DNA from: Eubacteriales bacterium
GTDB taxonomy: Bacteria; Bacillota; Clostridia; Lachnospirales; Lachnospiraceae
DNA length: 64,000 bases
Direction of reading: 5' to 3'
Assembly (NCBI GenBank): GCA_030524455.1
Contig: JAUNGT010000001.1
Span: 310,001 to 374,000 of the forward strand
The position numbers and the translations under genes are program-made. Shown here in pieces: positions 3,037-46,062 of the stretch. The notes under the pieces are model-generated. The model did not search any database. It saw nothing but the letters and a program-made list of their open reading frames with translations, and was not told the DNA's origin. Numbering within the stretch: position 1 is the stretch's first letter; each line of letters starts with the position of its first letter.

Positions 3037-3168
3037 GCGATACGCCCTGCAAGCGGCTGCCGTGCTTGCACAGGCAGCCATTTGCAGGGCAACGGACAGC
3101 GAACAGCTTTGCTGTGAGCTGGCCGCGGTATCGCGGCGGATAGGGAAAGATTTTCTTCCCCTATCCGA
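3036..3168 (+). repeat. Structured intergenic repeat R1, copy A
   Basis: About 133 nt, nearly identical to 40308-40444 and, inverted, to 44266-44400. It contains successive hairpins: CCCTGCAA...TTGCAGGG enclosing GGCTGCC...GGCAGCC, then ACAGC TTT GCTGT, then CCGCGGTATCGCGG, and a last stem CGGATAGGG...CCCTATCCG. Not coding in any convincing way. It fills most of the clpX-lon gap. Confidence 0.85.
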
Positions 3169-40307: not shown

Positions 40308-40444
40308 TGCGCGATATGCCCTGCAAGCGGCTGCCGTGCTTGCACAGGCAGCCATTTGCAGGGCAACGGACAGCGAACAGCTTTGCTGCGAGCTGGCCGC
40401 GGTATCGCGGCGGATAGGGGAAGAAAATCTTTCCCTATCCGCGC
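40308..40444 (+). repeat. Structured intergenic repeat R1, copy B
   Basis: Near-identical to copy A (3036-3168) over its whole length, including the four hairpins and the last stem CGGATAGGGG...CCCTATCCG. It occupies most of the 286-nt gap between the ABC ATPase and the NifU-like gene; the remaining 90 nt upstream show nothing recognisable. Confidence 0.85.
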
Positions 40445-42382: not shown

Positions 42383-43009
42383 ATGATAGTATATAAAAAT
42401 AATGGAGTGGAATTAAAATTTCAAACAAATGATAAAGTATTTTCGCCAAAAGCAATTGATGCCGGAACGATCAGTATGTTATCTAAAGTGAATTTTGCAC
42501 CTACAGATAAGGTGCTTGATTTAGGATGCGGCTATGGGTTCGTTGGCATTTATGCGGGACAATTTATCAGCCCATCGAGAATAACAATGAGTGATATTTC
42601 TGAGGATGCACTGGAGCTTGCGAAAGAAAATATTGCTCTGAATCATGTGAATGGGATTAAAGTCGTAAAAAGTAACGGATTGGATCATATTGAGGATTCC
42701 GGATTTACTTTGATTTTGGCGAACCCTCCATATCATGAAGATTTTTCCGTACCGAAAAACTATATCGAAAAAGGGTATAAGAAGTTGACGGTAGGGGGGG
42801 CAATGTATCTCGTCACGAAAAGAAAAGAATGGTATAAAAAGAAATTAATAGCAGTTTTTGGCGGTACGAAAATTTATGAAGTGAACGGATATTATGTATT
42901 TATGGCTGAAAAAAAAGAATACAGGAAACAGACGGATAAGAAAAACGAAAATCATTTATCAAAAAAATTAGCAAGGAAAAAATCGCGGAATCGAAAGGAG
43001 GACGTGTAG
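42383..43009 (+). CDS. SAM-dependent methyltransferase with NPPY motif (RsmC/TrmN6-like)
   Basis: 208 aa. Motif I VLDLGCGYGFVGIYAG and the N-methylation motif ILANPPYHEDF place it with small RNA (or DNA) N-methyltransferases. The core ends near residue 172 (YYVFMAE); a very basic tail follows whose last eight residues (SRNRKEDV) are read from a repeat also found inside rpn. The region is AT-rich against its neighbours. ATG 42383 is the best start, though GGAAGGGAG is 13 nt upstream; TTG 42341 lacks a ribosome site. Confidence 0.8.
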   Translation: MIVYKNNGVELKFQTNDKVFSPKAIDAGTISMLSKVNFAPTDKVLDLGCGYGFVGIYAGQFISPSRITMSDISEDALELAKENIALNHVNGIKVVKSNGLDHIEDSGFTLILANPPYHEDFSVPKNYIEKGYKKLTVGGAMYLVTKRKEWYKKKLIAVFGGTKIYEVNGYYVFMAEKKEYRKQTDKKNENHLSKKLARKKSRNRKEDV

Positions 43010-43187
43010 ATATGTGCAAAGGCTGGGATGATTATGCAGAAGATCGTGTAAAATCAAGCGCCAGAGATACTGTTGTCAGGATGATACGAAAAGGCTTGCC
43101 TGTGGAGGTAGCGATCGATACAGTAACCGGCTTGTCCAAGGAGGAGATTCGGGAGATTTACGAGCAGGAATTGTTGGTAAAATAATT
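42985..43187 (+). repeat. Direct repeat, first copy (3' end of an rpn gene)
   Basis: About 203 bp, matching 44054-44256 inside rpn. The first 120 nt are almost identical; a block of substitutions lies at about 43094-43116. It contains the methyltransferase stop, a Shine-Dalgarno and the 57-codon frame. Confidence 0.9.
43012..43185 (+). CDS. Free-standing 57-aa homolog of the Rpn C-terminal domain (RpnS-like candidate antitoxin)
   Basis: 57 residues beginning MCKGWDDYAEDRVKSSARD and ending EIYEQELLVK; 50 of 57 are identical to residues 255-311 of the Rpn nuclease encoded 134 bp downstream. Five of the seven changes fall in a six-residue window (29-34: LPVEVA here, AQLEFI in Rpn). AAAGGAGG (42994-43001) lies 10 nt before ATG 43012. 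In E. coli the equivalent C-terminal fragment, made from an internal start, inhibits full-length Rpn; by analogy this could be a separate inhibitor. A terminator follows. It could also be a decayed rpn remnant. Confidence 0.7.
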   Translation: MCKGWDDYAEDRVKSSARDTVVRMIRKGLPVEVAIDTVTGLSKEEIREIYEQELLVK

Positions 43188-43206: not shown

Positions 43207-43238
43207 GGCTGCTTCACAAAAGCAGCCATAATTTTTAT
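43207..43238 (+). terminator. Terminator after the 57-aa gene
   Basis: GGCTGCTT (43207-43214) and AAGCAGCC (43220-43227) form the stem, followed by ATAATTTTTATT. Confidence 0.75.
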
Positions 43239-43318
43239 TGCAGGTAAAGTAAAACGGACGTATAATAAGACCAAAGGAGACGTCCATTTGCCATTATGCA
43301 GAAGGAAGGAATGAGAGA

Positions 43319-44254
43319 ATGGGGCGTAAGGATGCAATAACAAAGGAATATACTTCCGATAACAGGATCTTTGCAGACCTGTTCAATTTTTTCTTATACG
43401 GCGGAAGGCAAGTGATACGGCCGGAGGCGCTGAAGACGCGTGATTCAGCGGAAGTGGCCATCCCGTATGGGACAGATCAAAAATCGGTTCCGGCGCAGAA
43501 GCAGCGGGATGTGCTGAAGGTCTATGCGGCAAAAGAGGCCGGAGGCGTTACCTATCTGCTTTTGGGATTGGAGAACCAATCTGACCAGCATTACGCGATG
43601 CCCTGTAAGAATATGATGTACGATGCAATGAATTATAGCTCCCAGGTAAGTCAGGCAGGGAAGAGCCATAGATCTGATCATAAGGCAGATCGGGCAGAGT
43701 ATCTTTCCGGTTTTACAAAAGATGATCGGTTGATGCCCGTGGTAACGCTGGTGTTGTTCTGGGGTGCTGGAGAATGGGATGCACCGCGCAGTCTGCATGA
43801 GATGTTTGGGGATGTGGATGAAGAGGTATTAAAATATGTCCCGGATTATCGGATTAACCTGATTGTGCCGGCAGAGATCGATAATTTTGAAAAATTTACA
43901 TCAGAGATTGGGCCGGTGTTAAAATTTATCAGAGAGTCACAGGATAAGAAACGGCTCAAGGAATTGGTTTATACGGATGAACGTTACAAGAGCATGGATC
44001 CGGAGAGCGCCCGGTTGCTGAATGAGGTGGCCGGCTTAAAGCTGGATCTTACTGCGGAATCGAAAGGAGGACGTGTGGATATGTGCAAAGGCTGGGATGA
44101 TTATGCAGAAGATCGTGTAAAATCAAGCGCCAGAGATACTGTTATCAGGATGATACGAAAAGGTGCTCAACTTGAATTTATAATTGATACAGTAACCGGC
44201 TTGTCCGAGGAGGAGATTCGGGAGATTTACGAGCAGGAATTGCTGGTAAAATAA
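43319..44254 (+). CDS. Rpn-family recombination-promoting nuclease/putative transposase
   Basis: 311 aa. The N-terminal FADLFNFFLYGGRQVIRPEAL, RDVLK with Asp64, LLGLENQSDQHYAMP with Glu85-x-Gln87, and EWDAPRSLHEMF with PDYRINLIVPAEI are the marks of the Rpn/YhgA-like PD-(D/E)XK family in Lachnospiraceae. Family members cut DNA and are toxic; some act against phage. The last 57 residues form a separate helical module with its own ribosome site (next entry). Start ATG 43319 follows GAAGGAA. AT-rich compared with the surrounding chromosome. Confidence 0.88.
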   Translation: MGRKDAITKEYTSDNRIFADLFNFFLYGGRQVIRPEALKTRDSAEVAIPYGTDQKSVPAQKQRDVLKVYAAKEAGGVTYLLLGLENQSDQHYAMPCKNMMYDAMNYSSQVSQAGKSHRSDHKADRAEYLSGFTKDDRLMPVVTLVLFWGAGEWDAPRSLHEMFGDVDEEVLKYVPDYRINLIVPAEIDNFEKFTSEIGPVLKFIRESQDKKRLKELVYTDERYKSMDPESARLLNEVAGLKLDLTAESKGGRVDMCKGWDDYAEDRVKSSARDTVIRMIRKGAQLEFIIDTVTGLSEEEIREIYEQELLVK

Positions 44255-44256
44255 TC
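44054..44256 (+). repeat. Direct repeat, second copy (within rpn)
   Basis: Same unit as 42985-43187; here it is read in frame as the C-terminus of Rpn. The spacing of the two copies (about 1.07 kb) would allow deletion of rpn by recombination. Confidence 0.9.
44081..44254 (+). CDS. Internal in-frame ORF of rpn (RpnS-like intragenic protein)
   Basis: Met255 of Rpn is preceded by a textbook AAAGGAGG (44063-44070) at 10 nt, a signal with no purpose inside a coding region unless translation restarts there. It would yield the 57-residue C-terminal module alone. In-frame GTG 44075 is a second possible start. This is the layout described for E. coli rpn genes, where the short product neutralises the long one. 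Expression here is inferred. Confidence 0.65.
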   Translation: MCKGWDDYAEDRVKSSARDTVIRMIRKGAQLEFIIDTVTGLSEEEIREIYEQELLVK

Positions 44257-44265
44257 TTTACGGGG

Positions 44266-44400
44266 TCGGATAGAGAAAGATCTTCTTCCCCTATCCGACG
44301 CGATACCGCAGCCAGCTCACAGCGAAGCTGTTCGCTGTCCGTTGCCCTGCAAATGGCTGCCCGTGCAAGCACGGCAGCCGCTTGCGGGGCGTATCGCACA
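44266..44400 (-). repeat. Structured intergenic repeat R1, copy C
   Basis: Reverse complement of copies A and B, with a few substitutions. It lies 12 nt past the rpn stop, between convergent rpn and sulfatase genes. Confidence 0.85.
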
Positions 44401-46021: not shown

Positions 46022-46062
46022 CATCGCGGCGGATAGGGGAAGAAAATCTTTCCCTATCCGAT
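46022..46062 (+). repeat. Partial R1 repeat (terminal hairpin only), copy D
   Basis: Contains only ATCGCGGCGGATAGGGGAAG to CCCTATCCGAT of the R1 unit. It lies 34 nt beyond the end of the iron-uptake operon, read on the minus strand, where the hairpin may serve as its terminator. The rest of the 45880-46095 gap is AT-rich leader of the sulfatase gene. Confidence 0.75.

Follow-up and report, generated by a model that had tools for sequence, protein, structure and literature searches.

Toxin-antitoxin pairs encoded as a gene within a gene, with a long protein RpnL and a short protein RpnS, have been described for E. coli, and internal translation also for C. difficile (Zhong et al. 2023, PMC10327210). 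The E. coli short forms prevent growth inhibition as well as SOS induction and DNA cleavage, and RpnA-S was reported to be a three-helix bundle (PMC10327210). Separate rpnS genes occur downstream, near rpnC and rpnE, and inhibition breaks down when the repeats are mismatched (PMC10327210). The long forms belong to the YhgA-like transposase_31 proteins studied by Kingston et al. 2017 (PMC5350276), in whose work mutation of D63, E82 or Q84 of RpnA abolished activity and the short form went unrecognised. Here we analyse an rpn gene in a window of 64,000 nucleotides from a gut-type Eubacteriales bacterium of the Lachnospiraceae (GCA_030524455.1, contig JAUNGT010000001.1, positions 310,001-374,000, forward strand). 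The features of the locus are collected in Table 1.

Table 1. Features of the rpn locus, in window coordinates.
Feature	Position	Strand	Basis or remark
Duplicated cassette matching 44054-44255	42985..43186	+	19 mismatches over 202 nt; codons 28-35 hold 15 of these
SD AAAGGAGG of the free-standing copy	42994..43001	+	lies in the 3'-terminal codons of the methyltransferase
Free-standing rpnS copy, 57 aa	43012..43185	+	88% identical to internal RpnS
Replaced block, codons 28-35	43093..43116	+	GLPVEVAI (copy) vs GAQLEFII (rpn, 44162-44185); maps to loop and helix 2
Intrinsic terminator 3' of free-standing rpnS	43207..43239	+	stem 43207-43227 and T-rich tail; z -4.2
Possible rpn promoter, TTGCAG-17-TATAAT	43238..43266	+	weak -35, perfect -10; read from sequence; absent from consensus scan, hence weak
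rpn, long form RpnL, PD-(D/E)XK-type nuclease, YhgA/Transposase_31 family	43319..44254	+	PF04754, catalytic residues
Internal Shine-Dalgarno AAAGGAGG	44063..44070	+	sequence; conservation vs synonymous null
Internal ORF, RpnS, 57 aa, MCKGWDDYAED...	44081..44254	+	predicted three-helix bundle

The window gene is an Rpn relative by sequence

The rpn ORF runs from an ATG to a TAA and encodes 311 residues. Its product scores 23.5 bits (E 4.8e-5) against the PF04754 profile, above the curated cut-off of 21, and matches none of the NCBIfam profiles. For comparison we drew relatives from 13 genus genomes, 299 family genomes and 80 loci of named assemblies, mostly Lachnospiraceae, and arranged them as set 1 (99 distinct loci of the same family or genus) and set 2 (71 loci of named assemblies), which merge to 166 loci. 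Residues D64, E85 and Q87 of RpnL are invariant in 50 relatives and pair in an hhalign comparison with D63, E82 and Q84 of E. coli RpnA, although overall similarity between the two proteins is low (probability 49%, E 2e-4, for this single comparison). Neither a PDB sequence search with RpnL as query nor a Foldseek search of the PDB with its full-length AlphaFold model (pLDDT 87.8, pTM 0.82) returned a relevant or significant match. Since the RpnS model gave no significant PDB match either, the fold assignment is sequence-based. On these sequence grounds we place the gene among the PF04754/Rpn relatives, with RpnA's catalytic residues conserved, in line with its designation as an Rpn nuclease gene in the first-pass annotation. 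It has the PF04754 nuclease domain and catalytic D/E/Q in common with E. coli RpnA/B/C/D/E and RpnP2, and with the proteins of Kingston et al.

A strong internal SD precedes Met255

The SD lies 10 nt before the in-frame ATG of Met255, from which 57 residues remain to the stop; the first-pass annotation had placed the SD, spacing, start and product exactly. Among the 27 in-frame ATG, GTG or TTG codons of rpn, the strongest predicted anti-SD pairing is found at codons 253 (GTG) and 255 (ATG), which have this one SD in common (-15.8 kcal/mol, against -9.3 for the next-best in-frame start); GTG253 is spaced only 4 nt from it. When synonymous codons of rpn were permuted, 3.6% of trials produced an equal SD at Met255 and 6.4% produced one at any of the in-frame starts, so that, judged from this single gene alone, the internal SD is no more than suggestive. 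In the E. coli RpnA control, AAGGAG precedes Met244, the residue at which the RpnA-S crystal entry 7TH0 begins.

A short rpn transcript from an internal promoter is a feature of E. coli; a consensus scan for such a promoter inside the window rpn found nothing above shuffled expectation. Masking of the internal SD by RNA structure was rejected, as predicted folding is close to the shuffled mean, and an Rfam search near the locus found no family.

Free-standing rpnS copies begin at or near the SD

A second, free-standing rpnS cassette, absent from the first-pass annotation, lies 1,069 bp upstream of the one inside rpn. The copied unit extends from 9 nt 5' of the SD to 1 nt 3' of the stop. Only four scattered bases differ outside codons 28-35, compared with 15 of 24 bases inside. 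Point drift accounts less well for this clustered eight-codon block than local replacement does, through gene conversion with a divergent tail. The ATG of the copy stands 2 nt past the TAG (43007-43009) of an RsmC-like methyltransferase ORF, a gap that makes translational coupling possible. We rejected the idea that the duplication had shortened the methyltransferase: a relative with 56% identity stops at a similar point, so the gene at whose end the cassette came to lie is intact. Here the free-standing gene is upstream and carries a swapped block, whereas those near E. coli rpnC and rpnE are downstream.

Two further pairs were found in the same genome, at the rpn loci L223 (reverse strand) and L224, at the end of contig C36 and at the start of contig C53, where each rpn is followed downstream by a free-standing rpnS whose homology to its parent begins exactly at the SD AAGGAAGGGAA. 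The two copies have a common flank and may go back to one event that was later duplicated. Parent and copy tails are both 93 aa in one pair; in the other they are 93 and 78 aa, with fewer repeats in the shorter. Similar free-standing or truncated tails, most retaining SD and start, accompany about 10 of the 166 scanned loci.

The upstream copy could instead be all that is left of a tandem rpn duplicate in decay. We regard this as a plausible but less probable origin: arrays of rpn genes occur often, as do tails truncated at the N-terminus, and all four scattered differences are compatible with drift, but the copy is cut off just ahead of the SD and at the stop, its frame is intact, a terminator is present, and the C36 and C53 copies begin precisely at the SD.

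Two more distant loci were noted. A distant rpn paralogue of the same genome (L003, contig C69, 2257-2281) has an internal SD AGAAGGAGG before an ATG and a tail with four-residue repeats, and a relative about 30% identical on an IMG/VR contig (L209) has GGAGG before an internal ATG-Cys. We dismissed phage carriage of rpn, as L209, with its low identity, was the sole viral-contig relative found.

The internal start coincides with a predicted domain boundary

In the full-length AlphaFold model, a low-confidence linker at about residues 241-250 is followed by a helical bundle from residue 255. Modelled alone, the 57 residues of RpnS form predicted helices at 3-26, 31-36 and 43-56 (pLDDT 85.8). 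In these models a distinct C-terminal bundle of three helices begins at Met255, and the internal start coincides with the domain boundary, as in the E. coli Rpn proteins, where internal SD and ATG stand just 5' of such a bundle. The Foldseek search of the PDB with the RpnS model did not return RpnA-S (7TH0); its weak matches, none significant, include Trp-repressor-like and sigma region 4 folds.

The window tail lacks four-residue repeats in helix 1, unlike E. coli Rpn; they are present in the tail of a paralogue in the same genome and in most relatives. Since some known RpnS also lack them, the repeats count as a feature that varies among RpnS proteins, not as a strict one. When the 57-aa tail was searched by itself, strong matches came only from the two window copies; rpn tails diverge fast. 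Hypervariable tails, repeats in most relatives and extra rpnS genes near rpn are likewise found in E. coli.

Residue 2 of RpnS (44084-44086; Cys256 of RpnL) is cysteine in 157 of the 166 loci (TGT 104, TGC 53), against a cysteine background of about 1% overall and 0.6% in the remaining tail. The anchor pattern for set 2 demanded Cys after the start and rejected six loci (four M-R, one M-D-T-C and one truncated); counting loci left out in this way, the share is about 157 of 171, still above 90%. Trp (TGG) was never seen at this position, which points to a constraint on the protein. Near-invariant Cys2 thus marks RpnS in this branch, whereas E. coli RpnA-S has Thr. Methionine aminopeptidase removes Met before Cys, and such removal would expose an N-terminal Cys on RpnS only. 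Our hypothesis for Cys2 is a role in redox- or modification-controlled release. The main text of Zhong et al. does not mention cysteine (PMC10327210).

A more far-reaching reading of the copies and of Cys2, which we consider rather unlikely as a whole, is that the internal antitoxin of this branch, from SD to stop, is a mobile cassette repeatedly copied from rpn and re-diversified. Those copies in which the helix-2 block is exchanged or the repeat number differs would be specificity variants or decoys, and Cys2 would act as a switch, operated by redox state or modification, to release the nuclease.

Promoter region and neighbourhood

An inverted repeat, GGACGT/ACGTCC (43256-43261 / 43280-43285), brackets the -10-like TATAAT (43261-43266) of rpn and is a possible operator. 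A dispersed palindrome, GGATAGRGRAAGAT..., occurs at 3138-3166, 40412-40440, 44268-44296 and 46031-46059 (8 matches against 0.14 expected), and three of these four places lie near a second shared motif, TGCAAATGGCTGCCYGTGCAAGCA.

The short product might be a DNA-binding autoregulator, or else a structural or stoichiometric subunit, rather than an inhibitor. The HTH-like three-helix fold predicted for the RpnS tail and the inverted repeat around the -10-like element would suit a regulator, but the documented activity of the E. coli short forms against growth inhibition, SOS induction and DNA cleavage makes us consider such roles very unlikely.

Around rpn lie genes for metabolism, transport and housekeeping, among them amino-acid, methyltransferase, sulfatase and siderophore-uptake genes, with no defence island in this neighbourhood. 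PADLOC had no model match for rpn, and its matches among the neighbours look generic (ATPase, methyltransferase, topoisomerase). Because the neighbours are non-defence genes and the PADLOC matches only generic, a part in phage defence, as put forward in the first-pass annotation, is the weakest step and speculative.

The internal start is conserved beyond the needs of the protein

We anchored the relatives on the position homologous to Met255 and compared the predicted anti-SD duplex energy upstream with a null obtained by synonymous codon resampling of identical residues. The mean in set 1 was -13.4 kcal/mol, against a null of -9.7 (SD 0.26) and against -4.0 kcal/mol for other internal in-frame Met codons of the same set; the mean in set 2 was -13.0 kcal/mol, against a null of -8.4 (SD 0.36). 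In each of the two sets, predicted ribosome binding thus exceeds the synonymous null by about 13-14 null SDs, a formal significance that is overstated because the relatives are not independent; both sets agree nonetheless.

The start codon itself is ATG in 139 and GTG in 24 of the 166 merged loci (163 together), GTT in two and GTA in one, and all three loci with GTT or GTA offer an ATG or GTG in frame, two codons further upstream. Of the 27 loci that encode Val at the start position, 24 use GTG, compared with a share of about 32% elsewhere (P ~1e-9). Relatives encode the SD core through differing residues and codon phases (KGG, EGG, EEE, KEE), as would be expected if selection acts on the RNA and not on the protein. 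We regard this comparison as decisive: judged by their conservation, the internal SD and start are not due to chance and are kept far beyond the requirement of the protein sequence. Comparison of homologs with the synonymous expectation was the check that the first-pass annotation had proposed, and the SD is retained. We give very little credence to the reading in which a conserved acidic and glycine linker (KGG, EGG, EEE) before Met-Cys yields the SD-like stretch incidentally and no separate protein is made: the protein-only null is already fairly strong (-8.4 to -9.7 kcal/mol) because E, G and K codons resemble an SD, but both sets lie well past it, Val starts are mostly GTG, the SD is retained while linker residues vary, and free-standing copies, some behind unrelated sequence, are homologous from the SD onward and retain SD and start.

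Discussion

The best explanation of the locus, and in our judgement a highly probable one, is an Rpn toxin-antitoxin gene within a gene in which RpnS inhibits RpnL and the free-standing rpnS is a second source of antitoxin. Full translation would yield RpnL, a non-specific DNA endonuclease of the PD-(D/E)XK type that ends in a helical bundle. Ribosomes would also initiate at the internal SD and ATG and produce the bundle alone, RpnS, which would pair with the identical bundle on RpnL, hold the nuclease inactive and block DNA cleavage. The free-standing rpnS, probably translated on the methyltransferase message, would be a source of RpnS on a separate transcript; its product would either add to the antitoxin supply or, owing to the replaced helix-2 block, differ in specificity. 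For RpnS translation, RpnL toxicity, complex formation and inhibition we infer by analogy with experimentally studied relatives. The conserved start, the domain boundary, PF04754 membership with its catalytic residues and the E. coli precedent together support the proposal, already made in the first-pass annotation, that the same gene-within-gene logic operates here. By description the locus also resembles the C. difficile rpn that Zhong et al. tested in E. coli, a Gram-positive gene with an internal start giving RpnS.

The gene-within-gene arrangement is already published, and the window system with its free-standing copies is an extension of it, not a new phenomenon; what is added here is a quantitative start-site test, free-standing diversified copies and the Cys2 signature. 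The start-site test tells selection for the start site apart from selection for the protein, and the free-standing copies provide natural matched and mismatched toxin-antitoxin pairs within one genome. The conserved Cys2 suggests a release mechanism, release being an open question according to Zhong et al. In summary, the RpnL/RpnS logic would extend to a large branch centred on the Lachnospiraceae.
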